Virus record (IMG/VR): IMGVR_UViG_3300028030_000063
Span: 1 to 22,431 of that record
DNA length: 22,431 bases
Source: a virus
Direction: 5' to 3' (one strand)
Below, in pieces: positions 544-20,268 of this stretch. The number at the start of each line of letters is the position of its first letter. The stretch's first letter is position 1. The position numbers and the translations under genes were made by a program. The notes beneath the pieces were generated by a model that saw nothing but the letters and a program-made list of their open reading frames with translations, had not been told where the DNA came from and searched no databases.

Positions 544-598
544 CTCCGAGAGTTTTAATTTAACTCTCGAAGTACTAGGGAAGATAAAGAGAGTTAAA
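544..598 (-). promoter_or_regulatory. Mutually exclusive hairpins in front of a ribosome binding site
   Basis: A perfect 10-bp inverted repeat joins 589-598 (leftward strand TTTAACTCTC) to 559-568 (GAGAGTTAAA). The second arm can instead pair with 547-554 in a perfect 8-bp hairpin (CGAGAGTT at 569-562 with AACTCTCG, 7-base loop). The second hairpin ends on the first G of the GGAG that serves the gene starting at 538. The first hairpin includes the primase stop codon. One arm shared by two alternative partners is the layout of an attenuator or translational switch. Confidence 0.55.
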
Positions 599-3110
599 CC
601 CAAAGTTGTAGTTGTTTAAGATGCTCTATGCAATGTTTACGGTTAGGCATAGCTAGATAAGGATTATTTTTCTTAAGGTGAGTAAACTTTTCTAATTGTA
701 TTTTAGTGGGAGATTTACGTTTTTCATGAGGAAAAGGTAAAAATCTATCCATCTCTTTAGCGATATGTATTGCACTTACTGTTGCAGTGCGTTCAAATCT
801 AGCTGTTTGTGTATAAGCTTGTTTGAATAGTTTCACTGGAAGTAAAACTGTTGTACTTATATTATCATCTTCATTGTTCCACATTTCATTTATGGATGTA
901 GTTTCTAAATTCATTGACATTGGATCTGACGCATCAGTAGGTATAATTTCTTCATCTTCACATAACGCTATTAAGAAATGTAATGGGTCACCGCCAGATT
1001 CAATTTGATTATATCTTGAGTGCTTACCGACATGCTCTGGTATTGCTTGCGGGTCATAATCAGTTAAGTCAAGATTATCTAGATAGTAAGCATAAGCTTC
1101 CAAGAGACGTTTGCGTTTTTTAGTGTTAGTGCGTCCGAATTGTTTAAAATATGTTTTATCTTTACGGTGTACATCACTAACTGATAATGTCCAGAATCTA
1201 CGTTCTTCGTCTCTTAGACTTTCCGGAACAGAAAAACCCGGGTTAGCAGTAGCTATAATGTCAAAGCAGGAAGGACTATCATAAACTACGTTTAAAAATT
1301 TAGTGTTAACCACTAAAGTTTCTTGGGTGATAAGGTCTTTTAGTATTGAGTTATCCTGTTCACGTCCTCCCCACGTAGCTTCTTCTAATCCAATCATAGT
1401 TGTATAGGCAAAGTGAGAATTAAATTGACCGGTTAGTGCTTTGAAATTAGATGTAGTATAAGTAAAAGGTGTATGTAGAGCTAAAATAAGAGCTGACATT
1501 ACAGATTTACCAGTGCCTTTTTCTCCCATAAGAGTTATCATTAAACCGGTCTTTTTATCTGGATAGCGGCGAGTATGTGCCACCCATTTATGAAAATGTT
1601 CAGCTAAATCAGACTTACCGCTGCAAATAACATTTTGTACTAAATCTAAAATAGGGTCACAATTACCTTTAACTGGGCGGATATCATAACCAGAAAAACG
1701 GTTAAGAACTTTATTGTCTGGAATTTCTTTTGGTAAACTAGTTTTATCTTCCGGACTATAGATTCCATATTCTGGTTTAAATACCATATCTTTATAATGG
1801 AATGTATTATTATCATGAATCCAGGCAGTAGCTGCAGGTTCACTTTTAAAACGTATAGTACCGTCTTTATAAGTCTTTGTTGTCGGAATCTTCAGATGAG
1901 CTATATCGAGTTTGAAGCTTTGTTCGCTCATTAAGTTGTATAGCCCATTGGTAACGTTCTTGTACACGATTTTTACGTCGCCGCCACTCGTCCGCGTTAT
2001 TGCGTAATATCTCGAAATTTTTTTTAGGATACTATCTGCCGTATCTGGTATTTGTTTTATTATGAATGGTGGTGGTTCAAAGTTATAAGTAAATCCTTTA
2101 TCCATGGCCATTGCGAACATAGTTCCAATGGTTACTGGATTAGATGTATTAGTATCAAAACTAAATGAGTCCCATATGTAGTTAATATCGTCATCATCTA
2201 CGTATGTAGAAGGTGGACTATTTTCATAAGGATTAATGCCTGATGTATCTCTATAGTATTTACCTTTGCTCCAGTCTAATGCAATTTGTCTGCCTTCTTG
2301 TTGGCCTCTGTATTCATGATGTAAACCCATGATTACTTTAAGCCATCCGTCGCGTTGATTTGGAAATTCAGGGTCTATGTAGCTAAGTGCTGCCAGGATG
2401 GATACTGTATCAGGTACCTGTAAGATATTGTCTTTACGGGCGTCTGGTGTGCATCTAGGGGCTATTGGTGCAGGAGGGAATGCTTTTAGTATTTCATCCC
2501 ATGTATATCGTTTAGTTTGCAGTGGAGTATTGGTTCTATGAACTTTGAATGGTGTATTTTTAAGATGATGAAACCCCGGGATACGTAATACTCTGGCTAA
2601 GTCTTTAGCATTAGGGTCTGAATTATACTGTTGGACCATATGTTCTTGTACAGCACGAGCCTCAAGTTTATGCGTAGTATCTGTTAAGAAGTAGTAATGG
2701 TATTTATTCGGAGAAGTTTGTATTACCATGGATGGTTCTATCGGGAAATTCTTAGGCTCTCCTGTGTCATCTTCTACGAAGATAGTATTGATTCCTACGA
2801 TATTATGATTTTTGCGCCCCTGACCATCAGTTTTATTTACTGTTACGAATACTCCACACCCGAGACGGTTGTAGTATATTAAACTTTCTTTTTGTGACTC
2901 CCAGGTGCCTATAAATTGGCGAGATAAATCTTTACGTTGTTCAAGTGTAATAGCTTTGTTATCAGGAAATACTGTAAAAACAAAGACTTGTTGTTTAAAA
3001 GGTTGAGATTCAGAAGTATTAGTTAAATTGCGTAAAAAAGAGGTAGCTTCTTGCTCGTCATAAGTTAAATCTAAGTATTTATTTGGTTCCAGTTTATAGA
3101 TATCCGCCAC
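594..3110 (-). CDS. Replicative primase-helicase (AEP primase, PriCT-2, SF3/DUF5906-type helicase)
   Basis: An 838-residue bifunctional replication protein that would make primers and unwind DNA at the phage origin. The N-terminus carries RepB-like archaeo-eukaryotic primase signatures: FVEDD at about 111-115, SPNKYHYYF at about 133-141, and ARVLRIPG at about 172-179. A PriCT-2-like region follows at about 235-315 (R-x-GWLKVIMGL). The C-terminal helicase has Walker A GEKGTGKS at 529-536, Walker B IGLEEA near 573-578, a sensor-like IIATAN near 618-623, and RDEERRFW as the arginine-finger candidate. The start is GTG, with GAGGAG seven bases upstream, overlapping the end of the small HTH gene by 17 bases, so the two are probably translationally coupled. 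The architecture resembles the phage P4 alpha protein and many phage or plasmid D5/DUF5906 proteins. The iteron-like region just upstream fits an initiator role. Confidence 0.93.
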   Translation of the reverse strand: MADIYKLEPNKYLDLTYDEQEATSFLRNLTNTSESQPFKQQVFVFTVFPDNKAITLEQRKDLSRQFIGTWESQKESLIYYNRLGCGVFVTVNKTDGQGRKNHNIVGINTIFVEDDTGEPKNFPIEPSMVIQTSPNKYHYYFLTDTTHKLEARAVQEHMVQQYNSDPNAKDLARVLRIPGFHHLKNTPFKVHRTNTPLQTKRYTWDEILKAFPPAPIAPRCTPDARKDNILQVPDTVSILAALSYIDPEFPNQRDGWLKVIMGLHHEYRGQQEGRQIALDWSKGKYYRDTSGINPYENSPPSTYVDDDDINYIWDSFSFDTNTSNPVTIGTMFAMAMDKGFTYNFEPPPFIIKQIPDTADSILKKISRYYAITRTSGGDVKIVYKNVTNGLYNLMSEQSFKLDIAHLKIPTTKTYKDGTIRFKSEPAATAWIHDNNTFHYKDMVFKPEYGIYSPEDKTSLPKEIPDNKVLNRFSGYDIRPVKGNCDPILDLVQNVICSGKSDLAEHFHKWVAHTRRYPDKKTGLMITLMGEKGTGKSVMSALILALHTPFTYTTSNFKALTGQFNSHFAYTTMIGLEEATWGGREQDNSILKDLITQETLVVNTKFLNVVYDSPSCFDIIATANPGFSVPESLRDEERRFWTLSVSDVHRKDKTYFKQFGRTNTKKRKRLLEAYAYYLDNLDLTDYDPQAIPEHVGKHSRYNQIESGGDPLHFLIALCEDEEIIPTDASDPMSMNLETTSINEMWNNEDDNISTTVLLPVKLFKQAYTQTARFERTATVSAIHIAKEMDRFLPFPHEKRKSPTKIQLEKFTHLKKNNPYLAMPNRKHCIEHLKQLQLWV

Positions 3111-3721: not shown

Positions 3722-3840
3722 TGAAAATAGAACAAAAATCCACTGGTAAATAAGCGCACCACTGGAGATTAAGTAGTGAATACTCTTAGATGCTTCTGAG
3801 TTGCTTTCTAAGTCACTTTTATACTAGAAGAGGTTGCAGA

Positions 3841-4008: not shown

Positions 4009-4761
4009 ATGAGACGTAGTCAAGCTTTGCGTATATATAATACGCGTTATAATCATCTGCATCAACGTGGGTGTGATCGTTTTAAATGTTTTTATTGCGG
4101 TGATACATCGGTTGAGCTAGACCATTTTCCTCCAATAACTTTAGCGCATATAATTAGCGATAAGGCTTTACATTTATTAATACCTTCTTGTAGTGAATGT
4201 AATAGTTTATTAGGAACTAGTTTACAAGATTCTTTATCTGAAAGAATAACTTATCTGAAAACTCGTTTAGAGCATAAATATAGGAAAGTTTTATCTTCTA
4301 CGTGGACTAAAGAGGAATTAGAACAATGGAAAGCAGACTCTCCTGACTCTAGATTATTATCTACAATTAAAAACTTTTCGAAAAGTACACAGTTTATTAC
4401 TGAAAGATTATCATACTACACAAAAGAGTATGAGATTAAAGGCTGTGTGTATCGTAACACGGAAGAAGTGTCTTTAGATATAGGTATTTATTATGATGAT
4501 AAGTTTTTTGAATCTGTTCATTTAGCAGTTGCTTATGCCAGTAATACTTACTCTATACGTAAAGATTTAATAATTAAAAAATTAAATAAAGGGTTTACTT
4601 TAGAACAAGCTATAACAAGATTGCAATTCGAATTTAATTTGCGGTTAGAAAGTAAAAAATTTGAACATCCTGTTAGAACGTATAATGCGCTATTACAACT
4701 AGCAGATGATAATCCTTTATTATCTGTTTATGAACTCATAGAAAAATATAAAACACTTTAG
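4009..4761 (+). CDS. HNH homing-type endonuclease
   Basis: A 250-residue nuclease predicted to cut DNA with a Zn-supported HNH fold. CFYC at 27-30 and CSEC at 61-64 form the metal-binding knuckles, with VELDHFPP (catalytic His39) between them and Asn65 after the second Cys pair. Residues about 156-205 have the pattern of the modular DNA-binding repeats found in homing enzymes: IYYDDKFFESVHLA followed by KKLNKGFTLEQAITRL. I chose ATG 4009 because AAGGAG sits eight bases upstream; an in-frame GTG at 3970 lies inside the structured leader and has no such site. It is the only rightward gene between leftward operons and is enclosed by a 22-bp direct repeat, consistent with a selfish free-standing endonuclease that moved in as a unit. 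Confidence 0.9.
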   Translation: MRRSQALRIYNTRYNHLHQRGCDRFKCFYCGDTSVELDHFPPITLAHIISDKALHLLIPSCSECNSLLGTSLQDSLSERITYLKTRLEHKYRKVLSSTWTKEELEQWKADSPDSRLLSTIKNFSKSTQFITERLSYYTKEYEIKGCVYRNTEEVSLDIGIYYDDKFFESVHLAVAYASNTYSIRKDLIIKKLNKGFTLEQAITRLQFEFNLRLESKKFEHPVRTYNALLQLADDNPLLSVYELIEKYKTL

Positions 4762-5250: not shown

Positions 5251-5571
5251 TTATTGGTTACAAGGTAATTTCTCTATTAATGCGTTCAGTATAATATCTC
5301 TGGCAGGATTATTCCATTCTTTTGGATGAGTATAAAGATATATTGATATCGTGGTATTTAAATCTTCAAATGTTAATTTTGTTTTACTGCACCATGATAT
5401 TCCGGAGTAAGCATCTAATACACCTTTAAGGTAACCATCTATTTCTCTAAGTTGAGGATAATCTCCTGTTTCTGAATAATAAATTAAATCAGAACCACGA
5501 TGAAACGTAAGGATTTTTTCTGCTTTAACTGGGGTGAAAGTTAATAAAAAACAGATAATTAAACGAAGCAT
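5251..5571 (-). CDS. Secreted Rap1a/Tai-family protein
   Basis: A 106-residue precursor with a clear signal peptide (MLRLIICFLLTFTPVKA, then EK). The mature part follows the Rap1a/Tai pattern: IDGYLKGVLDA near 44-54, a Cys at 61, IYLYTHPKEWNNPA near 77-90, and KLPC at 101-104. The two cysteines are the pair usually conserved in the family. Founding members are periplasmic immunity proteins that bind peptidoglycan-cleaving T6SS amidase effectors, but the fold is common in phages, where the role is largely unknown. The start is ATG 5571 because GGGGA lies five bases upstream; longer in-frame starts would spoil the signal peptide. Control of a periplasmic cell-wall enzyme, such as lysis timing or exclusion, is plausible inference. 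Confidence 0.8.
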   Translation of the reverse strand: MLRLIICFLLTFTPVKAEKILTFHRGSDLIYYSETGDYPQLREIDGYLKGVLDAYSGISWCSKTKLTFEDLNTTISIYLYTHPKEWNNPARDIILNALIEKLPCNQ

Positions 5572-6625: not shown

Positions 6626-6661
6626 ATGTATACTCCTAAGTATAATTAATAGAGCCAGATG

Positions 6662-6689
6662 TTGACAGCCAGCACCTGTAACTCATAAT
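6662..6689 (+). promoter_or_regulatory. Sigma70-like promoter pointing against the leftward genes
   Basis: Perfect TTGACA at 6662-6667, 16-base spacer, CATAAT at 6684-6689. Transcription would start near 6696 and run rightward, antisense to the small genes at 6725-7128. There is no rightward gene downstream, so this is either an antisense RNA promoter or chance similarity. Confidence 0.35.
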
Positions 6690-6699
6690 ATTTAAAATT

Positions 6700-6727
6700 A
6701 AAGCTTTTATAACTGCTTTAGCAGTTA
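6700..6727 (-). repeat. AAAGCTTT-hairpin element, copy 1
   Basis: AAAGCTTTTA is followed on the plus strand by TAACTGC-TTTA-GCAGTTA (7-bp stem). Read leftward, the hairpin includes the stop codon of the gene at 6725-6913 and is followed by AAAAGCTTTAATTTT, so it may act as its terminator. Confidence 0.7.
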
Positions 6728-6913
6728 ATCTTCCCAACCTTCACCATGCAGGTGAGCTTGAAGAATAGCTTTTTTACCTTGCTTGATATATTGTTCTTCT
6801 TCGAACAGCAATATAGATAAAGGGTCATCCTCCTGAACGTTTGGAACATTTAGAATTTTTTCATGGATGAAGTAATCTTCTGATTCTTCAGTTGCGTCAT
6901 ATATGAATGTCAT
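6725..6913 (-). CDS. Hypothetical acidic 62-residue protein
   Basis: A small acidic protein (MTFIYDATEESEDYF...HGEGWED) with no recognisable domain, signal peptide or membrane segment. The ribosome binding site AGGAGG is near-perfect, six bases before ATG 6913, and sits in the loop of a small GTAC...GTAC hairpin, so the gene is very likely real and well translated. The middle part is Glu-rich and probably helical. The stop codon is built into the hairpin of the AAAGCTTT element that follows. Its neighbours are similarly tiny leftward genes of unknown role, typical of early phage accessory genes. Confidence 0.8.
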   Translation of the reverse strand: MTFIYDATEESEDYFIHEKILNVPNVQEDDPLSILLFEEEQYIKQGKKAILQAHLHGEGWED

Positions 6914-6960
6914 GATGTACCTCCTATAGTACGTTTTGTTAATGACATTACATTTAAGTA

Positions 6961-6987
6961 ACAGCTTTTTTACAGCTTTAGCTGTAA
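6961..6987 (-). repeat. AAAGCTTT-hairpin element, copy 2 (variant)
   Basis: The box is degenerate (ACAGCTTTTT) and is followed by TTACAGC-TTTA-GCTGTAA. Read leftward, the stem encodes the last residues and the stop codon of the gene at 6970-7128, and is followed by AAAAAGCTGTTACTT. Confidence 0.6.
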
Positions 6988-7128
6988 TAGTAAACTTGTA
7001 GGTAGAATGATTTGGTCATAATAAAGTTTAAGCATAAATAACTTACGATTAGCTTTAAGTTTTTGTTTTATATAGGTGTTTGGGCTATTAGTTATGTATG
7101 TTAATTTTATGAATTGTTTAGTAAGCAT
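6970..7128 (-). CDS. Hypothetical basic 52-residue microprotein
   Basis: A very basic peptide, MLTKQFIKLTYITNSPNTYI and onward, rich in Lys, Leu and Tyr. No domain is recognised; the C-terminal stretch LYYDQIILPTSLLLQLKL is hydrophobic and may be amphipathic. The start is ATG 7128, with CGGAGT seven bases upstream; an in-frame ATG ten codons earlier has no ribosome binding site. The stop lies inside a perfect hairpin. Confidence 0.65.
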   Translation of the reverse strand: MLTKQFIKLTYITNSPNTYIKQKLKANRKLFMLKLYYDQIILPTSLLLQLKL

Positions 7129-7159
7129 AGTTTTTACTCCGTTATTCTTACTAAACAAT

Positions 7160-7436
7160 GTCTATCCCCATGCAAGCCCCGAAGGGGCCAAGAGCGTGAG
7201 AGCATTCAGGGTTTAGAATATTGAATAAGGACAAGGAGATACAGACGGGTCGGGTGTCGGGGAAGGCGACAAACAAAGTAAGCTTGCTTACTTTGTAGGA
7301 AGATTCTTAAAAAACGTAGTCCCTTAAGCAACGGTGAGTGCCGTTGTATAAAAGTAAGGCGAGCGAAGCGAGCCGTGCCTAGTACTTAAAGATAATAAGG
7401 CTGGTGCTAAGCACCAACCTGGCAGGTTAGATGAAG
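7160..7436. other. Hairpin-rich intergenic region
   Basis: No gene is supported here. It contains GCCCC-GAA-GGGGC (7176-7188), the first copy of the G-rich motif (7247-7272), an 11-bp hairpin ACAAAGTAAGC/GCTTACTTTGT (7273-7296), CAACGG/CCGTTG (7329-7346), GGCGAGC-GAA-GCGAGCC with a central tandem G-A step (7358-7374) inside an AAGTA/TACTT outer pair, and TGGTGC-TAA-GCACCA (7402-7416). A 23-codon leftward frame ending at the ribosome binding site of the gene at 7128 lacks its own site and is not called. Confidence 0.6.
7247..7272 (+). repeat. G-rich stem motif, copy 1
   Basis: GGG-TC-GGG-TGTC-GGGG-AA-GG followed by CGACAA. TGTCG (7255-7259) pairs with CGACA (7267-7271). This copy has U-A where copies 2 and 4 have C-G, a compensatory change. 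Confidence 0.65.
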
Positions 7437-7535
7437 TTATCTGCGACTAGCTTCTTTATAGACTAAGCTAGTACCAAAGATACTGTTTAGTCTTAATAAA
7501 AAATGTTTGTAGTTTTTAGGGTAACGTTTTCGCAT
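7437..7535 (-). CDS. Hypothetical basic 32-residue microprotein
   Basis: MRKRYPKNYKHFLLRL and onward, 32 residues, strongly basic at the N-terminus. It starts within the previous gene (7493-7723) in another frame, overlapping it by 43 bases. The reason to call it is the initiation region: CAGGAGAAACTATTATG is almost identical to the leader of the gene upstream (CAGGAGAAACTACTATG), with AGGAG correctly placed. A cationic peptide of this size could bind nucleic acid or membrane, but that is speculation. An 8-bp inverted repeat (ACTAGCTT/AAGCTAGT) lies within the coding part. Confidence 0.5.
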   Translation of the reverse strand: MRKRYPKNYKHFLLRLNSIFGTSLVYKEASRR

Positions 7536-7723
7536 AATAGTTTCTCCTGTTTAGTTAATAAATAACGTAAAGCAGTTTTACTACCTAATGTACTGCCTAT
7601 CTCTTGTACAAACGGAATGAATGCACGTAGTGATTCATTGTTTTGTAAAAGCTCATTAACTATTTGAGCTTCTTCAGACATCATGGAAAGTTCCATTTCT
7701 CTTGCGATTTCTTCAGTAGTCAT
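7493..7723 (-). CDS. Hypothetical 76-residue helical protein
   Basis: MTTEEIAREMELSMMSEEAQ and onward, rich in Glu and Leu, predicted mainly helical, with no recognised domain. The N-terminal half is acidic and the C-terminal half more hydrophobic (SLRAFIPFVQEIGSTLGSKTALRYLLTKQ). The start ATG 7723 is supported by AGGAG seven bases upstream and by an ATGA overlap with the stop of the preceding gene, indicating translational coupling. A 32-codon gene begins inside its end. Longer in-frame starts run into the upstream gene and are unlikely. Confidence 0.75.
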   Translation of the reverse strand: MTTEEIAREMELSMMSEEAQIVNELLQNNESLRAFIPFVQEIGSTLGSKTALRYLLTKQEKLLCENVTLKTTNIFY

Positions 7724-8019
7724 AGTAGTTTCTCCTGTGTATGCCTGAATCTGGCTAGTCTGGAAATACATTTACCTTCGTTTTCACGAAGGCGATTAAA
7801 GGCTTGGCGAAGCCATTTAATTTGTCTTTCATTGTAACCAGTTTCCCAATTTTTACGTATGTAATACCATAGTTTATAGAATGGTTGACGTGTGTCTTTG
7901 TAAAAGGCACACATAGTTTCTAATTCTTGGTATGATTTATCCATAAGTTCAATTTTATCCAGGGCTTGTAGAGCACCTGTTTTCTTCAGGTACTCTACGT
8001 TGATTGTAGGTTTAGGCAT
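7720..8019 (-). CDS. Hypothetical basic 99-residue protein
   Basis: MPKPTINVEYLKKTGALQAL and onward, basic and aromatic-rich, with a Trp/Tyr/Arg segment (FYKLWYYIRKNWETGYNERQIKWLRQAFNRL) that looks like paired helices able to bind nucleic acid. No family is recognised. AGGAG lies seven bases upstream of ATG 8019; an upstream in-frame start inside the previous gene is not needed. It starts two bases after the membrane-protein gene stop and its own stop overlaps the next start as ATGA, so genes 8457 to 7437 form one tight five-gene operon. Confidence 0.8.
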   Translation of the reverse strand: MPKPTINVEYLKKTGALQALDKIELMDKSYQELETMCAFYKDTRQPFYKLWYYIRKNWETGYNERQIKWLRQAFNRLRENEGKCISRLARFRHTQEKLL

Positions 8020-8021
8020 AG

Positions 8022-8273
8022 TTATTCTCCTACACCGTATAGCCATTTACTGGCTTTAAGACTTAAAGATAAGCCAAAGCCAATACCGATAGCCATGAAT
8101 AGTGAGCCAGATGTTCCTACTGATAACATCATTGCACCGGAGGTGACGATGATGTCAGTGATAGGATTACAAAAATAAGCGTTAAAAGTACGTTTAGTTT
8201 CTCTGGACATGTAACTGTAAGCCATAATATAGCTTACGATGGATACAACAAAGCCTAGAATGAATGATTCCAT
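8022..8273 (-). CDS. Hypothetical 83-residue membrane protein
   Basis: Two membrane segments are evident: residues about 3-21 (SFILGFVVSIVSYIMAYSY) and about 41-71 (IIVTSGAMMLSVGTSGSLFM and onward), joined by a basic loop SRETKRTF. The second segment is Gly/Ser-rich and long. There is no clear lysis-protein signature: a holin is conceivable because of size and topology, but its place among early-type small genes argues against it. The start ATG 8273 has GGAGG seven bases upstream, and this region overlaps the last codons of the preceding gene. Confidence 0.75.
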   Translation of the reverse strand: MESFILGFVVSIVSYIMAYSYMSRETKRTFNAYFCNPITDIIVTSGAMMLSVGTSGSLFMAIGIGFGLSLSLKASKWLYGVGE

Positions 8274-8274
8274 G

Positions 8275-8457
8275 CTACACCTCCGGATAGTAAGTGAAAT
8301 ATTCGTCCCAATAGTCTGCAAAAGTTGCATCTGTTGGGTCGGAGAACTGAGTCTTCCATTCAATGGAAGCTAATTCTTTTATGTCCTTGCAGATATGAAA
8401 AACAACACTTATACCAGCGTTGTTTAATTCGATTAATAAATTTTTATGGGTAGACAT
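8275..8457 (-). CDS. Hypothetical 60-residue protein
   Basis: MSTHKNLLIELNNAGISVVF and onward, ending ATFADYWDEYFTYYPEV; acidic and aromatic at the C-terminus, with no recognised domain. It is the first gene of a five-gene leftward operon. The leader AAGGAGTAAATACTATG matches those of the genes starting at 10926 and 10681, and an imperfect CCTTTAGT...ACTAAGG hairpin partly covers the ribosome binding site. Upstream sits an AAAGCTTT-hairpin element and the second G-rich motif, so control signals are concentrated here. Confidence 0.78.
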   Translation of the reverse strand: MSTHKNLLIELNNAGISVVFHICKDIKELASIEWKTQFSDPTDATFADYWDEYFTYYPEV

Positions 8458-8492
8458 AGTATTTACTCCTTAGTTAAATAAAAACTAAAGGT

Positions 8493-8519
8493 AAAGCTTT
8501 AAGTCAGCTTTAGCTGACT
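8493..8519 (-). repeat. AAAGCTTT-hairpin element, copy 3
   Basis: AAAGCTTT at 8493-8500 followed by AGTCAGC-TTTA-GCTGACT at 8502-8519. It lies 36 bases upstream of the gene starting at 8457, so here it is in a leader and not at a stop codon. Confidence 0.7.
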
Positions 8520-8578
8520 ATGATAGATAAGATAAGTGAGTAGTTATATTAATAGGGAAAGTTAGGAGATAACTGCAT

Positions 8579-8606
8579 GGGGCGGGTGCCGGGGCTAGGG
8601 CGGCAA
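8579..8606 (+). repeat. G-rich stem motif, copy 2, full quadruplex consensus
   Basis: GGGG-C-GGG-TGCC-GGGG-CTA-GGG followed by CGGCAA. Four runs of three or more G with loops of 1, 4 and 3 bases satisfy the usual G-quadruplex pattern. TGCCG (8587-8591) can instead pair with CGGCA (8601-8605). Confidence 0.7.
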
Positions 8607-8608
8607 AG

Positions 8609-8632
8609 AACTAAGCCCGTCAGGGCTTAGTT
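8609..8632 (-). terminator. Leftward terminator of the Dps-like gene
   Basis: A perfect 10-bp stem AACTAAGCCC/GGGCTTAGTT with a 4-base loop, ten bases after the Dps stop codon, with A and T runs on its flanks (TTTTAAAAAA on the plus strand). It abuts the G-rich motif. Confidence 0.75.
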
Positions 8633-8642
8633 TTAAAAAAGA

Positions 8643-9140
8643 TTATTTCATAGCAGATTCATATTGCCAAATGTATTTTTTAAGATGAGTTATGATAGAA
8701 GTAGAAAAATCTACAAGATCTTGACGTTCGTTTTCATCTGCATAAATATTAATATTTTCACAGAATTTAACTAAGCTTTTATAGTCTTTAACTATTTGAG
8801 GGAATACTGATTCAGTACGAACCAAAGAGTTTTTAGTATTTTCGGAAATGATAGATAAATCTATCATTTTAGACATGCTTATAGGAGCAGGAGAATCATC
8901 GAGTTGTCGAACTAGTTCGGCAGCGCCATCACCAAAATCAAGCATAGCATCGATTTGACAATCTAAGTCTGCATGGACAGGGAAGAATTGATTACCTACC
9001 AGATTCCAATGAAAGCCTTTAAATTTAATGGCTAATACATATAAACTGGAGGATAATTCTGCGAAAGAATTAGATAGTTCTTTTTCTGCAGGAGAGGCTT
9101 TAGTACGTACTAAAGCTGGTTTGTCATAAGAGTTTTTCAT
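8643..9140 (-). CDS. dps: Dps-like ferritin (DNA protection during starvation family)
   Basis: A 165-residue member of the Dps branch of ferritins, which assemble into 12-mers that oxidise and store iron and, in many cases, coat DNA. The family core is clear: KFKGFHWNLVGNQFFPVHADLD at about 39-60, then DFGDGAAELVRQL at about 68-80. The inter-subunit ferroxidase ligands of E. coli Dps (His51, His63, Asp67, Asp78, Glu82) align with His44, His56, Asp60, Asp71 and Glu75 at exactly the same spacing, so the enzyme is probably active. The C-terminal helix ends KKYIWQYESAMK. ATG 9140 has AAAGG seven bases upstream. The gene stands alone, with a G-rich motif and a terminator on its downstream side and another G-rich motif upstream. 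Protection of phage or host DNA against peroxide during infection is the likely role. Confidence 0.9.
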   Translation of the reverse strand: MKNSYDKPALVRTKASPAEKELSNSFAELSSSLYVLAIKFKGFHWNLVGNQFFPVHADLDCQIDAMLDFGDGAAELVRQLDDSPAPISMSKMIDLSIISENTKNSLVRTESVFPQIVKDYKSLVKFCENINIYADENERQDLVDFSTSIITHLKKYIWQYESAMK

Positions 9141-9428
9141 GAAAGTACCTTTTAATTAAGAGTTTAAGTGTGCACAAACTGAGTATACACTTTGAGCTAT
9201 TAGCTCTCAAGGCTGGGGTGTCGGCTTCTATGGCGGCAAGAATCTATTGAATTTTTATACCCCACGTATGGGAGAAGAGGGATCCCTTGCCCTTAAGGGG
9301 CAAGGGATAAACTTAACTCTTAACCTGGAAAGGCTAAGAGTTAAGTAGTTAATCTTTAAGAAAGATTGTTATATTAAAAAAGGCGATTCATATCAATAAT
9401 ATGAACTACCAGTTTTCTGCAAGAAAAT
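9141..9428. other. Hairpin-rich intergenic region upstream of dps
   Basis: No gene is supported. Besides G-rich motif copy 3 (9211-9239) there are five perfect hairpins in a row. They are ATCCCTTGCCC/GGGCAAGGGAT (9282-9308), TTAACTCTTA/TAAGAGTTAA with an inner CCT-GGAA-AGG (9313-9344), AATCTTT-AAG-AAAGATT (9351-9367), TTCATAT/ATATGAA (9387-9405) and TTTTCT-GCA-AGAAAA (9413-9427). The first is the best terminator candidate for the membrane-protein gene to its right. A TTGAGCTATTAGCTCTCAA hairpin lies just before the G-rich motif. Confidence 0.6.
9211..9239 (+). repeat. G-rich stem motif, copy 3
   Basis: GG-CT-GGGG-TGTC-GG...GG-C-GGCAA. TGTCG (9219-9223) faces CGGCA (9234-9238), with one U-G pair on the plus strand. 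The G runs are shorter than in copy 2, so only a two-layer quadruplex is possible. Confidence 0.6.
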
Positions 9429-9695
9429 TTAACATAATTTATTCCTCCGAAATATATGTTTTGGTATTAAATGCCAAATTAAAGTTAGCACATTCACAGT
9501 AGCGAATGTACTGAATATTACGAACAGCACAGTACTCCATTGAGCCAATGGAATAGTAATGAATAGCGTAAACGCTATTCCAACAAGAGTTGAAACCCAA
9601 AAAGTTTGGTTTTCTAACCATTCAGGGGTTTCCCTTTGTACAATAAGGAAAGACAAAAAGATAGATAATATAACCATAGTGATAAGATACATCAT
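9429..9695 (-). CDS. Hypothetical 88-residue membrane protein
   Basis: Three predicted membrane segments: about 2-19 (MYLITMVILSIFLSFLIV), about 32-52 (FWVSTLVGIAFTLFITIPLA) and about 54-77 (STVLFVIFSTFATVNVLTLI). A short Glu-containing loop (QRETPEWLENQ) separates the first two, and the tail is basic (PKHIFRRNKLC). The topology is like a small inner-membrane superinfection or holin-type protein, but no family is recognised. The start is one of two adjacent ATG codons at 9695, with AGGAG seven bases upstream held in the loop of an AGTTC...GAACT hairpin. Confidence 0.78.
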   Translation of the reverse strand: MMYLITMVILSIFLSFLIVQRETPEWLENQTFWVSTLVGIAFTLFITIPLAQWSTVLFVIFSTFATVNVLTLIWHLIPKHIFRRNKLC

Positions 9696-9738
9696 GATAG
9701 TTCTCCTATGAACTAATAAAGTAAGTAAGAATTAGAAT

Positions 9739-9764
9739 GAGGGCTTGTGAACTGGGTAGCCCTC
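9739..9764 (-). terminator. Probable leftward terminator after the gene at 9803-9958
   Basis: GAGGGCT (9739-9745) pairs perfectly with AGCCCTC (9758-9764) across a 12-base loop. Read leftward it is followed by the T-rich CATTCTAATTCTT. Confidence 0.6.
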
Positions 9765-9802
9765 TTAACCCGTGCAAAAGCAGTTTTAAAACATGCTTAG
9801 GT

Positions 9803-9958
9803 TTAAGAATTTAATTTAGGTTTTCTCCTATAAATGCTAGTATTTAGACCATTAACGGCATACAGTTCTATTGTACGCATATGCATTAATAGCATACTAA
9901 CATTAGAGTGTCCGCTATTGGCACGAGCTCTAAGAATTATTTTATACCAGTTAGACAT
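9803..9958 (-). CDS. Hypothetical basic 51-residue microprotein
   Basis: MSNWYKIILRARANSGHSNV and onward, ending IYRRKPKLNS; basic, with no recognised domain. The start ATG 9958 has AAAGGAG eight bases upstream, in the loop of a TTGTT...AACAA hairpin; an in-frame ATG nine codons earlier lacks a ribosome binding site. The leader carries an AAAGCTTT-hairpin element and, further out, a long array of hairpins and a G-rich motif, an unusually large control region for so small a gene. Confidence 0.68.
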   Translation of the reverse strand: MSNWYKIILRARANSGHSNVSMLLMHMRTIELYAVNGLNTSIYRRKPKLNS

Positions 9959-9996
9959 ATTGTTCACTCCTTTATTAACAAACAAAAATAGAAGAT

Positions 9997-10023
9997 AAAG
10001 CTTTCAGTCTGCGCAAGCAGACT
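9997..10023 (-). repeat. AAAGCTTT-hairpin element, copy 4
   Basis: AAAGCTTT at 9997-10004, then AGTCTGC-GCAA-GCAGACT at 10006-10023. Compared with copies 3 and 5 the stem has an A-T to T-A swap on both sides, a compensatory change. It lies 38 bases upstream of the gene starting at 9958. Confidence 0.7.
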
Positions 10024-10088
10024 ATTAAATATAAACAAACTGACATAGTAAGTTGTATACAGGAAAGCAGTTAGTCTTGGAGAGGATT

Positions 10089-10257
10089 CTTAAGGACGAT
10101 TAGTTCTTAAGGCGTAAGATTTTTAAGGACTACGCTTAGTCCTTAAACGATTTTCAAGCAGAGCTTGAACGGGTACAGGGCAGAGCCCTGTTCGAGTCCA
10201 GCAGAATGCTGATCGAAGCGTAAGCTTCGAAAGATAGAGCTAAGCACGGAGTGCTTA
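10089..10257 (+). repeat. Array of seven short hairpins
   Basis: Consecutive near-perfect hairpins: CTTAAGGAC/GTTCTTAAG (10089-10111, one G-T), TTTAAGGACTA/TAGTCCTTAAA (10122-10147), TTCAAGC-AGA-GCTTGAA (10153-10169), ACAGGGC-AGA-GCCCTGT (10175-10191), CAGCA-GAA-TGCTG (10199-10211), TCGAAGC-GTAA-GCTTCGA (10213-10230) and TAAGCAC-GGA-GTGCTTA (10241-10257). Four have purine triloops on the plus strand. No gene is present, and the whole 9959-10343 gap is otherwise non-coding. Confidence 0.75.
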
Positions 10258-10272
10258 AGCCTTGCTTTTAAG

Positions 10273-10303
10273 AGGCTGGGGTGCCGGGCTTTTAGGGCGG
10301 CAA
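10273..10303 (+). repeat. G-rich stem motif, copy 4
   Basis: GG-CT-GGGG-TGCC-GGG-CTTTTA-GGG-CGGCAA. TGCCG (10282-10286) pairs with CGGCA (10298-10302). It lies immediately beyond the terminator hairpin of the gene at 10344-10544, the same placement as copies 1 and 2 relative to their hairpins. Confidence 0.65.
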
Positions 10304-10335
10304 TTAAATACCTAGCCTGGAGGCTAGGTATTTAA
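10304..10335 (-). terminator. Leftward terminator of the gene at 10344-10544
   Basis: A perfect 14-bp stem TTAAATACCTAGCC/GGCTAGGTATTTAA with a 4-base loop, eight bases after the stop codon, with a T-rich 3' side on both strands. Confidence 0.8.
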
Positions 10336-10343
10336 ATTAAATC

Positions 10344-10544
10344 TTATGAATCAAGAATAAGATTTTTTAACTCTTTATCGTTTAATAAAGCATGATTAAC
10401 GATAGGGATGGAATATACATCGTACAAATCATGTTCAATAAGAGCTAATTTGTACTGTAGTTTCCACCATAATTTTTCATTGAAATCAAATATCTTATTG
10501 GCATGATTTATTATTTTGAGTTCAATATTATTTAGTACAGGCAT
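10344..10544 (-). CDS. Hypothetical 66-residue protein
   Basis: MPVLNNIELKIINHANKIFD and onward. The N-terminus is similar to that of the protein at 10735-10926 (M-S/P-VLN-x-IE), suggesting distant paralogues or a shared leader segment. The sequence is rich in Leu, Asn and aromatic residues and probably helical; I recognise no family. ATG 10544 has AAGGAG six bases upstream, inside the loop of a TTATTC...GAATAA hairpin. It overlaps the end of the 49-residue gene upstream by 13 bases, so the two are coupled. Confidence 0.78.
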   Translation of the reverse strand: MPVLNNIELKIINHANKIFDFNEKLWWKLQYKLALIEHDLYDVYSIPIVNHALLNDKELKNLILDS

Positions 10545-10681
10545 GTTATTCTCCTTGTGTTACGAATAAGTTTTTTAACTTTATCTATAAAATTTGTTTT
10601 AACTGGCTGTAGAAGTTTTTTTAAAGCTTCTTCGTCCTTTTTATTAATTAAGAAATTAGTATTTTCGTATGGGGAATGCAT
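10532..10681 (-). CDS. Hypothetical basic 49-residue microprotein
   Basis: MHSPYENTNFLINKKDEEAL and onward, Lys-rich, no domain recognised. The start at 10681 has AGGAG eight bases upstream and the shared leader form AGGAGTAAATATTATG also seen before the gene at 10926. The AGG of the ribosome binding site forms the triloop of a perfect 7-bp hairpin (ATTTACT-AGG-AGTAAAT). Its 3' end overlaps the next gene's start by 13 bases. Confidence 0.6.
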   Translation of the reverse strand: MHSPYENTNFLINKKDEEALKKLLQPVKTNFIDKVKKLIRNTRRITCLY

Positions 10682-10708
10682 AATATTTACTCCTAGTAAA
10701 TAAAATTA

Positions 10709-10726
10709 AGCCCGCTTATGCGGGCT
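10709..10726 (-). terminator. Leftward terminator of the gene at 10735-10926
   Basis: A perfect 7-bp G+C-rich stem AGCCCGC/GCGGGCT with a 4-base loop, eight bases after the stop codon; read leftward it is followed by TAATTTTATTT. The next gene's ribosome binding site begins about 20 bases further on. Confidence 0.85.
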
Positions 10727-10734
10727 ATTAATAA

Positions 10735-10926
10735 TTAAAATGGAATTGAAGATGGAGTAACCATTTCAATATAGTAACGAAAAGTAATATTTTCTTTGCA
10801 AAATTTATCCATGCGGATAAGTAGTAATTTGCGTTCCTGTTTAATATAAGAACGAAAATTATTTTTCCTACAAGCTATTGCATACTTTGCGGTAATAGTT
10901 TTTTCAATATGATTTAAAACAGACAT
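10735..10926 (-). CDS. Hypothetical basic 63-residue protein, first leftward gene
   Basis: MSVLNHIEKTITAKYAIACR and onward, basic and rich in Lys, Arg and Ile. Its N-terminus resembles that of the protein at 10344-10544. No known family. It is the first gene to the left of the divergent hub. The leader AAAGGAGTAAATATTATG is shared with other small genes, and CCTTTGT...ACAAAGG (7 bp, 7-base loop) masks part of the ribosome binding site. An AAAGCTTT-hairpin element lies 36 bases upstream. It has its own strong terminator. Confidence 0.8.
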   Translation of the reverse strand: MSVLNHIEKTITAKYAIACRKNNFRSYIKQERKLLLIRMDKFCKENITFRYYIEMVTPSSIPF

Positions 10927-10962
10927 AATATTTACTCCTTTGTTAATAATACAAAGGAAAAT

Positions 10963-10990
10963 AAAAGCTTTTAGTCAGCGCAAGCTGACT
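10963..10990 (-). repeat. AAAGCTTT-hairpin element, copy 5
   Basis: AAAAGCTTTT at 10963-10972, then AGTCAGC-GCAA-GCTGACT at 10973-10990. It has the same stem as copy 3 but the loop of copy 4, placed 36 bases upstream of the gene starting at 10926. Confidence 0.7.
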
Positions 10991-11921: not shown

Positions 11922-12092
11922 ATGCAATTTAAAACTATACCAATACCAGGAACTAATGAATCACATATAGTGCCTGAAGATGAAGTACTTAAGCATAATT
12001 ATGAATATTTACAATGTAAATGTAAGCCTGTAATAGATAAGAGTAATAGTAAAGATATACGAATATGTCATAACAGCTTGTTACACAAGTAA
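11922..12092 (+). CDS. 56-residue Cys/His microprotein, paralogue of the next gene
   Basis: MQFKTIPIPGTNESHIVPED and onward. It shares ESH-I/V-VP-x-D, H-x-x-E-Y/F-LQCKC-x-P-x-ID and a C-terminal I-x-H-S/N stretch with the protein at 12374-12658, so the two are paralogues. Cys32, Cys34, His15 and the Cys49-His50 pair could bind a metal. Similar short proteins with HVIP...H...CxCxP are, to my knowledge, common beside phage terminase genes, with unknown function. It begins two bases after the terS stop. It is smaller than the cut-off many gene callers use and could be overlooked. Confidence 0.75.
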   Translation: MQFKTIPIPGTNESHIVPEDEVLKHNYEYLQCKCKPVIDKSNSKDIRICHNSLLHK

Positions 12093-12122
12093 TGAATAAG
12101 GTACAGAGTTTACCAGCTCAGT

Positions 12123-12340
12123 AAGTCGTAAGACTTTTTAGCTTAGCACGCGGGGCCTAATAGTTAGTTTTACGAGTTACGTGCAGCCAGGTTATGAAAA
12201 AGTCGTAAGACTTTATGCTTACTAGAATGTCTGAAGAGCATAAAAGTAATGTAAGAGTTTAGACGTTAAAATTTATAAAAGTTGTAAGACTTTTATAAAT
12301 TTTAATACCAGAGTTCACAGTAAAAGTCGTAAGGCTTTTA
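12123..12340 (+). ncRNA. Four GUAA-tetraloop hairpins between paralogous genes
   Basis: Four hairpins share the core AAGTC-GTAA-GACTT: 12123-12136 (5 bp), 12199-12214 (6 bp), 12266-12305 (18 bp, closed by a U-G pair) and 12321-12340 (8 bp with a U-G pair). GUAA belongs to the stable GNRA tetraloop class in RNA on the plus strand, and the variable bases keep pairing through G-U. The 12093-12373 gap has no credible gene. It may be a structured stretch of the packaging transcript, a processing signal or part of a packaging site. Confidence 0.6.
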
Positions 12341-12373: not shown

Positions 12374-12658
12374 ATGCATAGTGAATTGCCATCCGATGAC
12401 GTTAGAAGCTTAGGGCGCCGCAAGAGTTTGCGCACGGGTAAGTCTCTTAGTGAGATTATGCGAGGAAGTAATTGGGAAGTAATAGATATAGAGTGGAGGT
12501 CGGAATCTCACGTAGTGCCTAGAGATGATATAACAGAGCACACTCTAGAATTCTTACAATGCAAGTGTAGTCCGAAGATAGATAGTGTTATAAACGACTG
12601 TACAACAATAGTACATAGTGCGTTTGATAACCGAGAGTTATATGAGAGTCAACATTAA
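12374..12658 (+). CDS. 94-residue Cys/His protein next to TerL
   Basis: An N-terminal basic extension (residues 1-33, SLGRRKSLRTGKSL) precedes a domain that matches the 56-residue protein at 11922-12092: ESHVVPRDDITEHTLEFLQCKCSPKID spread over 44-70. Cys63, Cys65, His56 and His81 are candidate metal ligands; the end VHSAFDNRELYESQ matches a motif I associate with small phage proteins near terminases. Its stop overlaps the TerL start by one base (TAATG), so the two are translationally coupled, and a packaging-related role is reasonable inference. The ribosome binding site is weak (AAGAG). Confidence 0.8.
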   Translation: MHSELPSDDVRSLGRRKSLRTGKSLSEIMRGSNWEVIDIEWRSESHVVPRDDITEHTLEFLQCKCSPKIDSVINDCTTIVHSAFDNRELYESQH

Positions 12659-15228
12659 TGCGAAGTCTTGAGCATGTAGAAGCAGATTTATTAAGAGAGA
12701 TTGAAGCACTTAAGACTAAGGCGTGCGAGAAATCTCTTGCAGAATTCACTCGCCAGGCGTGGGAAGTAATTGAACCAGGCACACCATTAGTTTGGAATTT
12801 TCATATGGAAGTCATATGTGCGTATCTTGAAGCTACTACGACTATGAACCCTGAACGACGTATAACACGGTTGATTATTAACGTACCGCCAGGTAGTGCT
12901 AAATCTATCTTGGTAAGTGTTATGTTCCCAGCATGGCTGTGGATAAAACAACCACATAAAAAGATAATCGGCGTGGCGAATATTCAGGACTTATCTATAC
13001 GAGACAGTAGACGTACGAAGCAGATACTGCAAGATGAGTGGTATCAGAAGAGATGGCCTTTAGAGTTTAAAGGTGATCAAACAGCAAAGACTAACTATGA
13101 AAACGCCAAAGGCGGATTCAGACAGTCATTAGGTATTACTGCGAATATCACTGGTAAACGCGGTAATTACTTATTACTCGACGATTTACACGATGCATCA
13201 GATGTACAGTCCGACGTACAAAGACAGACGGTATTAGATGCATTTGATGAGAAGCTTAGTACTCGTCTTAACCATCAGGCAGTAGACGTGATAATCCTTA
13301 TTATGCAGAGACTGCATCATAAGGATATCACTGGACACTTGCTGAGTAAGAAGAAGACTAAGTGGACACATGTGGTAATACCTATGCATTATGATCCAGC
13401 GTATACATATAATGCTACGAAGGATTTAGGCAGACCGGACCTGGAAGACCCGCGTAAAGAGGGAGAGTTACTCTTTCCGGAAATGTTTCCTAAAGAAGTA
13501 GTAGAGAAACTCGAAGAAGACATGGGCTCGCACATATCTGCAGGACAGTTAGAGCAACGACCCAGTGTTAAAGGTGGAGGAATATTGAGGCAAGGTTGGT
13601 TTAGAGTATGGGATAAAAATGAACCATTGCCGGTGTGCGATCATATATTCATATCATGTGATACGGCATACTCTGAACGAGACTTAAAGAATAATTCGTA
13701 CTCAGCATTCACAACATGGGGAGTATTTTGGAATAAAGCGCAGGAGCGAGACTGCATACTCTTACTAGACGTGTGGTATGACAGAGTAGATTATCCAGAC
13801 TTACGCCGTAAGGCTACAGATATGGATAAAGATAAACGACCAGATGTATGGCTTATTGAGAAAAAAGCCAGTGGTCAATGCCATGATGATAAAACAGAAG
13901 TATTAACCTCAAACGGATGGAAGTTATTTAAAGACGTAGATATAAATAAAGATAAGTTTGCTACAAGGAATATAGAAACTAAAGAGTTAGAATGGCAGTA
14001 TGCTACTGCAGAAGTCAACGAGTATTATAAAGGACCGATGTATCATTTCCAACAGGCATATACTGATTTAATGGTTACTCCTAATCATAGAATGCTTTTA
14101 AATAGGGAGTATTTACCAAAGGATGTCAATATACAGGAACTACATACTCAGAATGAGTGTGTAGTTCTAGCTAAAGACTTAGCACCTGCTATTGCAGTAG
14201 TGAATAAGCATGATCTATTGTATTATGAGAATCCGGTTGTAAGAGATAAGCGCTTACCTCGTAAAGAACACAAGCGTATATCATTTCCTATCCGTAGCAA
14301 TTGGGTAGGCGAAGAACTATCGGATACTGTCGTAGTACTAGATAAAGAGTATACAATATCCGGTAACACATATGCTGAGCTTATAGGTATGTGTATGATC
14401 AAGCATAAATATAGATTCCGTACTATAGATATGAGTGAATCTCTCGCAAGTATTGTAAACATTGCTAATACTACAGGCATTAGCTTACCGAGTATCGAAG
14501 AAGTAATATATATTCCTTCGGATATTATGGAGGCTACACCTAAACAAATAGAATTGTTTTGGAGAATGTTAAGTAAACCATGGGATTGGGTTGAATACCA
14601 CGATACTGATAAATATAGAATAGACCAATTACAAGAGTTATTGCATAAAATGGGTGTTAATGCTCGTATCACTGAATACATGCATGATAATACTCTTATG
14701 TTCAAAATAAATATAACATATGACGATCGTACTAATCCTAGACTTGTCAATACTATAGACTACAAAGGAACTATACATTGTGTACAAGTACCAAATGGAA
14801 CTTTATACACTAGACGAGACGGAGCTGCATCATGGAGTGGTAATTCATTAGTGCAGGATATGCGTAGGGCCGGTATCCATGTACGAACTTATCAACCAGA
14901 TAAGGATAAGATTACACGAGCCTACTCGGTACAGGCGATGCTGGAGTCTGGACAGGTATGGATACCGGATAGGAAGTGGGCACATAAGTTCGCATATTTA
15001 ATGAGTACATTTCCTAAAGGCGTAGTCGAATCCAACGACCTTGCTGATACTCTGACTCAAGCTTTAATATACATGAGAAACAGTTGGTACGTAACACATC
15101 CAGACGATGGAGAGTGGGAAGTGCCTAAAGTACGTAAACATTCACCGTACGGCGGGCATCTTGGTGACCAGGATGAACGTACTTATAATTCACTAGACGG
15201 GATAGACCCGAGAGATTTACTGAATTAG
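12658..15228 (+). CDS. terL: Terminase large subunit interrupted by an intein
   Basis: An 856-residue precursor: 534 residues of terminase plus a 322-residue intein. The terminase packages phage DNA into proheads (ATPase) and cuts concatemers (RNase H-like nuclease). The ATPase has Walker A NVPPGSAKS at 75-83 and Walker B YLLLDDLHD at 171-179. The nuclease shows FISCDTAYSE (Asp335) and DVWLIEKKASGQ (Glu401) before the intein, and VESNDLADTL after it. Without the intein the length is typical of TerL. Splicing would join ASGQ to SLVQDMR inside the nuclease domain, near the catalytic Glu, a conserved position of the kind inteins favour. Translation is coupled to the upstream 94-residue gene. Confidence 0.95.
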   Translation: MRSLEHVEADLLREIEALKTKACEKSLAEFTRQAWEVIEPGTPLVWNFHMEVICAYLEATTTMNPERRITRLIINVPPGSAKSILVSVMFPAWLWIKQPHKKIIGVANIQDLSIRDSRRTKQILQDEWYQKRWPLEFKGDQTAKTNYENAKGGFRQSLGITANITGKRGNYLLLDDLHDASDVQSDVQRQTVLDAFDEKLSTRLNHQAVDVIILIMQRLHHKDITGHLLSKKKTKWTHVVIPMHYDPAYTYNATKDLGRPDLEDPRKEGELLFPEMFPKEVVEKLEEDMGSHISAGQLEQRPSVKGGGILRQGWFRVWDKNEPLPVCDHIFISCDTAYSERDLKNNSYSAFTTWGVFWNKAQERDCILLLDVWYDRVDYPDLRRKATDMDKDKRPDVWLIEKKASGQCHDDKTEVLTSNGWKLFKDVDINKDKFATRNIETKELEWQYATAEVNEYYKGPMYHFQQAYTDLMVTPNHRMLLNREYLPKDVNIQELHTQNECVVLAKDLAPAIAVVNKHDLLYYENPVVRDKRLPRKEHKRISFPIRSNWVGEELSDTVVVLDKEYTISGNTYAELIGMCMIKHKYRFRTIDMSESLASIVNIANTTGISLPSIEEVIYIPSDIMEATPKQIELFWRMLSKPWDWVEYHDTDKYRIDQLQELLHKMGVNARITEYMHDNTLMFKINITYDDRTNPRLVNTIDYKGTIHCVQVPNGTLYTRRDGAASWSGNSLVQDMRRAGIHVRTYQPDKDKITRAYSVQAMLESGQVWIPDRKWAHKFAYLMSTFPKGVVESNDLADTLTQALIYMRNSWYVTHPDDGEWEVPKVRKHSPYGGHLGDQDERTYNSLDGIDPRDLLN
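13879..14844 (+). mobile_element. Intein in TerL, with degenerate LAGLIDADG-like region
   Basis: Precursor residues 408-729. It begins with Cys (CHDDKTEVLTSNGWKLF, block A) and has block B VTPNHRML with its His at intein position 70. The C-terminal blocks are CVQVPNGTLYTRR (from position 301) and AASWSGN, followed by Ser as the first residue of the downstream extein. The penultimate residue is Gly instead of the usual His, a known variant. Positions about 165-260 have the shape of a LAGLIDADG homing domain (AELIGMCMIKHKYRF; DQLQELLHKMGVNARI), but the acidic residue expected after the first helix appears to be replaced by Lys/His. The intein probably still splices but may no longer be able to home. 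Confidence 0.9.
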
Positions 15229-20159: not shown

Positions 20160-20268
20160 AGGGTGTAGATAGACTTAGCGGTCGAACTCCGGCACCGAAC
20201 CGGTTTCTGCACACCTTACTAACCCCTGACATATGTTAGGATTTATTCGGTCTTGTTCTTCGGAGAAC
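20160..20268 (+). promoter_or_regulatory. Structured 5' leader upstream of the GroES-like gene
   Basis: AGGGTGT and AGA (20160-20170) pair with TCT and ACACCTT (20208-20219), enclosing a CCGG-7-CCGG hairpin. CCTGAC-ATAT-GTTAGG follows near 20225-20240 and GTTCT-TCGG-AGAAC at 20255-20268. The whole 20134-20436 gap has no convincing gene. A 71-codon frame starting with TTG at 20253 lacks a good ribosome binding site and would overlap the GroES-like gene by 32 bases. Confidence 0.5.

Follow-up and report, generated by a model that had tools for sequence, protein, structure and literature searches.

What marks the start of the small leftward genes of an uncultured phage, known here from a fragment? 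The window analysed here is an IMG/VR virus record (IMGVR_UViG_3300028030_000063) at its full length of 22,431 bases. Its leftward gene cluster contains five short elements, each consisting of a perfect hairpin and an adjacent eight-base box. A preliminary description, made from the sequence alone, had pointed out these elements and proposed a combined terminator and leader, or a processing site. It was found that all five are leader elements of leftward genes.

A repeated hairpin-box cassette in the leftward leaders

The five elements were confirmed at their reported places with small corrections (Table 1). On the minus strand, which is the direction of the genes, the order is a hairpin, a gap of 1-2 nucleotides (nt), the box AAAGCTTT, an AU-rich stretch, a Shine-Dalgarno sequence (SD), and ATG. 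Every hairpin (5/5) has a perfect stem of 7 base pairs (bp) and a loop of 4 nt. The box is an exact palindromic 8-mer. It occurs four times in the window, each time inside an element (4/4), and the fifth box is degenerate. The two parts were counted jointly, allowing at most one mismatch in the box and a gap of 0-3 nt to a perfect 7-bp/4-nt hairpin; the window has five such pairs, whereas 100 dinucleotide shuffles gave 0.02 on average and 1 at most. Perfect hairpins of this size are abundant in themselves (17 observed, 2.4 expected), the phage having many perfect hairpins in its non-coding DNA. Contrary to what had been stated, there is no alternation of loops along the cluster: on the plus strand, copies 1-3 have TTTA and copies 4-5 have GCAA.

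Is the pairing conserved? In the alignment of the five hairpins, 35 of 35 cells are paired, all of them Watson-Crick, with no G-U pair. Both sides changed at four of the seven stem positions (1, 2, 3, and 5), while positions 4, 6, and 7, which are the middle C-G pair and the loop-adjacent GC, are invariant. The covariation score is 0.714, compared with 0.197 after shuffling (0 of 500 shuffles reach the observed score), and at most 0.1 when the alignment is slid. Thus, the covariation supports a conserved hairpin structure, in line with the earlier remark that both arms change together. Two caveats apply: a single genome supplied all the copies, and the matched arms could also stem from templated repair of quasi-palindromes.

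The hairpin-to-ATG distances are 84, 56, 44, 47, and 46 nt for copies 1-5, and the start codon is that of a leftward gene in all five cases, not only in copies 3-5 as first described. The stop codons noticed in the hairpins of copies 1 and 2 are present. The first three nucleotides of the copy 1 hairpin are the stop codon of the gene at 6725-6913, while the one in copy 2 ends a small open reading frame (ORF), 6970-7128, that is unverified. Copies 1 and 2 are intercistronic, and copy 5 has no upstream gene. The leaders are strongly similar among copies 3-5 (z 6.3-7.4) and moderately so for copies 1 and 2 (z 2.5-4.1). No clear likeness between copies is seen over the 60 nt preceding the hairpin or over the opening 60 nt of coding sequence (z at most 2.0), and the same cassette precedes five unrelated small genes. 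Since the similarity is confined to the region from the outer edge of the hairpin to the start codon and the genes are unrelated, the copied or kept unit is a 5′ cassette of 62-102 bp. The leader part of the first interpretation is thereby upheld.

A covariance model was built from the five copies, as had been proposed. In the window, it returned the five copies and a weak, possibly degenerate sixth, whose box is truncated (lacking AAAGC) and which lies 20 nt ahead of the ATG of a leftward gene at 10681. In 235 kb of related sequence, it found nothing further that was convincing. No Rfam family exceeded its gathering score for the element, the best matches being unrelated and below threshold. 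Strict and relaxed DNA-pattern scans of viral contigs found no other carrier, so that the finding rests on one genome.

Table 1. Coordinates of the elements, cassettes, and neighbouring features in the window
Feature	Position	Strand	Description
Element copy 1	6700-6727	-	Hairpin 6710-6727, TAACTGC-TTTA-GCAGTTA (+ strand); sense loop TAAA; 2-nt spacer; box 6700-6707
Element copy 2	6961-6987	-	Hairpin 6970-6987, TTACAGC-TTTA-GCTGTAA (+ strand); sense loop TAAA; degenerate box 6961-6968 ACAGCTTT
Element copy 3	8493-8519	-	Hairpin 8502-8519, AGTCAGC-TTTA-GCTGACT (+ strand); sense loop TAAA; box 8493-8500
Element copy 4	9997-10023	-	Hairpin 10006-10023, AGTCTGC-GCAA-GCAGACT (+ strand); sense loop TTGC; box 9997-10004
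Element copy 5	10964-10990	-	Hairpin 10973-10990, AGTCAGC-GCAA-GCTGACT (+ strand); sense loop TTGC; box 10964-10971
Possible degenerate sixth copy	10701-10726	-	AGCCCGC-ATAA-GCGGGCT; covariance model 17.6 bits, E 0.02
Whole cassette 1	6626-6727	-	Before ORF with ATG at 6625; longest leader
Whole cassette 2	6914-6987	-	Before ORF with ATG at 6913
Whole cassette 3	8458-8519	-	Before ORF with ATG at 8457
Whole cassette 4	9959-10023	-	Before ORF with ATG at 9958
Whole cassette 5	10927-10990	-	Before ORF starting at 10926; hairpin, box, AU-rich leader, SD; similarity to copies 3 and 4 limited to the stretch between hairpin and ATG
Terminator-like hairpin	7398-7420	-	After unit ending at 7493; top of terminator scan
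10-bp hairpin	8609-8632		After Dps-like gene
16-bp hairpin	9311-9346		After unit ending at 9429
14-bp hairpin	10304-10335		Just after unit ending at 10344; candidate bidirectional terminator
Repeat M	7252-7272	+	Stem TGTCG/CGACA, compensatory to TGCCG/CGGCA
Repeat M	8584-8606	+	Sequence repeat
Repeat M	9216-9239	+	Sequence repeat
Repeat M	10279-10303	+	3′ side of a unit
Sigma-70-like promoter	9182-9210	-	TTGAGA-17-TATACT, Dps-like gene; 10/12 match

A proposed start cassette and its alternatives

What could such a cassette do? The architecture is repeated, the position and the pairing are conserved, the boundaries are defined, and the downstream genes are unrelated. With a little better than even confidence, I take the five elements to be one self-contained 5′ regulatory cassette in five copies, each marking where a leftward gene or small operon begins, in the manner of the promoter/stem-loop cassettes (PeSLs) of T4-type phages. 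Strong hairpins, one of them terminator-like, close the upstream units, so that the next unit should need its own start; nothing but the cassette is conserved at these places, which is why it is read as that start. Transcription of the upstream unit would end at the unit-end hairpins, and the cassette would set the 5′ end of each leftward unit as a promoter, a leader, or both, so that it would be the site of new transcripts or of new 5′ ends in the mRNA. Two further observations may be counted for this reading. The Dps-like gene (8643-9140), which lies in the accessory cluster, is the one unit start without a cassette, and of the sigma-70-like sites at the twelve leftward starts examined, its promoter scores best. 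In addition, a related viral contig, L008 (IMGVR_UViG_3300013233_000445), has an independent cassette of like design before its leftward genes.

Several results weigh against a start cassette. There is no sigma-70 -10 sequence at a common cassette offset (best sum 18, null mean 17.0, reached by 78 of 300 shuffles); the analysis identified no RNA polymerase, sigma factor, or activator of the phage, of which the window is only a 22-kb fragment; and none of the relatives searched has the same box. Moreover, a role in RNA alone would produce identical anatomy. The best sigma-70-like sites upstream of the cassette units match at 7-9 of 12 positions. Since the host sigma-70 signature is missing, a phage factor would be needed if the cassette is a promoter, or else the 5′ end would come from processing. 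The sequence AAAGCTTTA is one base off the consensus of the T4 MotA box, which is a mere lead; no -10 was found at a fixed spacing, and the proteins searched included none recognised as MotA.

Is the start cassette read as DNA or as RNA? It is possible, as a tentative and weaker part of the reading, that a phage-directed factor recognises the hairpin and the palindromic box as DNA. The perfect Watson-Crick arms without G-U and the exactly kept palindrome lean this way. Nearly as probable is action in the RNA, where the hairpin would sit at the 5′ end or serve for processing, upstream of an unstructured stretch on which ribosomes load. A more specific proposal, that a variable-sequence DNA hairpin of conserved structure and the palindrome AAAGCTTT form a new class of phage promoter recognised by a phage-specific transcription factor or polymerase, is unlikely.

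Action at the RNA level only is a doubtful alternative. The units would have ordinary promoters, the hairpin and AAAGCUUUA would be an endonuclease processing site or a 5′/3′ stabiliser, and the AU-rich stretch would aid ribosome loading. The T7 gene 10 leader and the RNase E sites of T4 gene 32 may be compared. The sense-strand hairpins fold as RNA at -7.5 to -10.3 kcal/mol, GC-UUU within the box fits the general RNase E pattern RN-WUU, and the unstructured AU-rich leader with its strong SD leans towards an RNA role, as do the intercistronic copies 1 and 2 with a stop codon inside the hairpin. On the other hand, an exact palindromic 8-mer exceeds the needs of an AU-rich leader, the sense loops UAAA and UUGC are not among the known stable RNA loops, the 35 cells include no G-U pair, and copy 5 lacks a gene upstream. 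The processing-site role of the preliminary description is a possible one, as judged from the sequence. A loop-box pseudoknot was considered separately and rejected; in copies 1-3 the loop UAAA has a possible partner in the UUUA of the box, but UUGC in copies 4-5 has none.

Could the template (plus) strand extrude the hairpin for a virion RNA polymerase (vRNAP), as in coliphage N4? This is very unlikely. The template-strand loop is flanked by GC...GC, as in N4 P2, the hairpin sits at the upstream edge of the cassette, and GNNA/GNA loops of non-coding hairpins are found 13 to 1 in favour of the plus strand. The variable bases remain paired, as in N4 (PMC4496689). However, each loop has 4 nt instead of 3, and in TTTA the key purine is missing; the portal and the terminase are not N4-like; and the cassettes of L008 differ. 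A PF00940 search of relatives gave no RNA polymerase, though its control also gave no match, and a 4487-aa protein of a relative (G001) matches polyvalent-protein domains, not N4 vRNAP.

It is just as improbable that the elements are intrinsic terminators insulating each gene, as the terminator part of the first interpretation would have it. Hairpins at gene boundaries, the stop codons within copies 1 and 2, and the equivalents in L008, which are real terminator shapes with U tracts, suggest such a role. Nevertheless, the hairpin is followed by (N)AAAGC of the A-rich AAAGCTTT, and only 3-5 of the 12 nt beyond it are T, which is not the shape of an intrinsic terminator, and separate, stronger hairpins close the units. 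In the terminator scan, copy 5 was the sole element listed, and on the opposite strand. A lambda-type nut site (boxA-boxB) on the plus strand was also read and rejected; the strand is wrong for the genes and the boxA core is absent.

A neutral origin has a slight chance at most. The cassette would have spread by duplication, and its arms would have been matched through template-switch correction of quasi-palindromes, with no selection. Perfect Watson-Crick pairs throughout, a hairpin-rich non-coding DNA, and the origin of all copies from a single genome agree with this, but all five copies keep the box, the spacing, and the pairing despite arm divergence, and their position ahead of genes is fixed. 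The chance that the elements are loading sites (ssi) for the RepB-type primase is close to negligible: its domain is present in the protein encoded at 594-3110 (RepB_primase, E 2e-12) and in RSF1010 the ssiA site forms a hairpin flanked by single-stranded tails (PMC4434180), sites of this type having conserved flanks with a GTG start and being recognised by RepB′, but the elements are always in leaders at a similar distance from ATG, the conserved block takes in the SD and the start codon, no conserved GTG-like start site lies beside the hairpins, and the five sites are on one strand within 4.3 kb.

Surroundings and relatives

A further unit-end hairpin, at 7273-7296, is listed alongside that at 7398-7420. 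A second repeat family, M (GGGTGYCGG-N-GGCGRCAA), is found at the 3′ side of leftward units in four places, after the unit-end hairpins, and its stem covaries (TGCCG/CGGCA or TGTCG/CGACA). The intergenic gap 10024-10343 (320 nt) forms about ten separate short hairpins in series (z -7.6 and -8.1 for the two strands), many of them with GNA or GNRA loops on the plus strand. Overall, special loops (GNA, GNNA, GNRA, CUUG, UNCG) of non-coding hairpins number 13 on the plus strand and 1 on the minus strand regardless of gene direction; in coding regions, the ratio is 6 to 4. A hairpin AAAGTC-GTAA-GACTTT occurs four times in a rightward leader (12121-12338), two copies having one G-U pair on the plus strand.

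The order of terminase, portal, GroES, and small terminase is podovirus-like (Pelagibacter phage HTVC023P, Roseobacter phage CRP-901, phage DSL-LC04), and the portal is 26-44% identical to those of phages of these types. Four nearer viral contigs (L002, L003, L008, and L009) were found via portal and terminase, and no relative was found among the genome contigs searched with the terminase. The rightward genes are structural. Among the leftward genes (0-11 kb) are those for a RepB-type primase/DUF5906 helicase, a Rap1a-family protein, and a Dps-like protein; many others are small unknowns. DNA similarity gave no match of this cluster to phage records, and a search of phages and viral contigs gave no relative of the gene that follows copy 1. 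The Rap1a immunity family protein (PF18602) is encoded at 5251-5571; the accessory region of DSL-LC04 has a gene annotated Tai4.

In L008, whose terminase is 66% identical, the leftward cluster likewise lies upstream of the terminases. Its leftward genes have a variable hairpin followed directly by TTTTTTGTTTTTAATAGG or a near variant (n=6), 25-80 nt ahead of start codons. Most of these hairpins have the shape of a terminator, U tract included; the T tract at 3831 lacks a strong hairpin before it. Elements with AAAGCTTT are absent from L008, and TTTTTTGTTTTTAATAGG was found singly in scattered other viral contigs, with the repeated set in none. To judge from these sequences, the two phages share the design (variable hairpin, constant box, leader) and not the sequences, the L008 cassette being a parallel, independent one.

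Three related phages have an intein-like insertion in the terminase large subunit at differing sites (window 12658-15228; L008 5973-8594; L009 1289-4453, with two in L009). Three also have a conserved candidate structured RNA in the groES leader (window 20160-20212, plus strand; L003 about 4262-4322; L008 about 11958-12012), consisting of an invariant TAGRC-TTAGCG-GYYGAAC and then a variable-sequence hairpin, with a covarying outer stem and no Rfam match. The 4487-aa polyvalent protein of G001 (L035 6066-19529, minus strand) has LPD38, ART-PolyVal, and methyltransferase domains.

Comparison with known systems

Which known system is closest? In T4-type phages, the PeSLs (Arbiol 2010 and Comeau 2014, as cited in PMC4503421 and PMC3950731) are mobile regulatory cassettes of promoter and stem-loop that stand between the small genes of plastic regions. 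The window likewise has a short composite stem-loop cassette repeated between small unrelated genes, with five copies bounded by hairpin and ATG; the cassette is conserved and the genes are not. Gene shuffling through cassette recombination is a further PeSL feature; in the window, within one genome, non-homologous genes lie behind the same cassette. In contrast, the window cassettes have no strong sigma-70-like early promoter and, by sequence, no terminator U tract (their L008 equivalents do carry one), the phage is not T4-type, and the place just before SD and ATG is fixed. Because two defining features, the promoter type and the terminator, are missing, the element is not filed as a PeSL member. 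If the start-cassette reading is true, a podovirus lineage plugs in small accessory genes via swappable start cassettes as T4-type phages do, but by other chemical means, the window using a covarying hairpin with a palindrome and the relative a terminator with a T-rich box. The cassette would then be a simple tag for accessory gene units, ready for a reporter test.

The L008 cassette is alike in having a varying hairpin and a constant box before the leftward genes of a related phage, and differs in its true terminator shape with a U tract and in its box. The T7 gene 10 leader also has a 5′ hairpin, an AU-rich spacer, a strong SD, and ATG; it has no repeated palindromic box, and an identified T7 promoter precedes its hairpin. 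In the haloarchaeal virus HGTV-1, most ORFs of a region are preceded by a conserved motif and an inverted repeat (PMC3950731), but the motif is an archaeal TATA-like box and the virus is unrelated. The early promoters of N4 share an upstream hairpin in which some pairs are conserved and others covary freely (PMC4496689). They differ in a 3-nt purine loop, 3 copies, a dedicated vRNAP, and an unrelated lineage. Where N4 vRNAP promoters have a 5-7-bp stem and a 3-nt, purine-centred template-strand loop, the window has 7-bp stems and 4-nt TTTA or GCAA loops, and no giant vRNAP was recognised in the relatives searched, the window itself being a fragment. Overall, the element, which has no Rfam match, is close in kind to PeSL cassettes and similar to N4 promoters in its covarying hairpin, on evidence from one genome and one analogous relative. 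If the hairpin is read as DNA, it would be a second case of a hairpin promoter beside N4.

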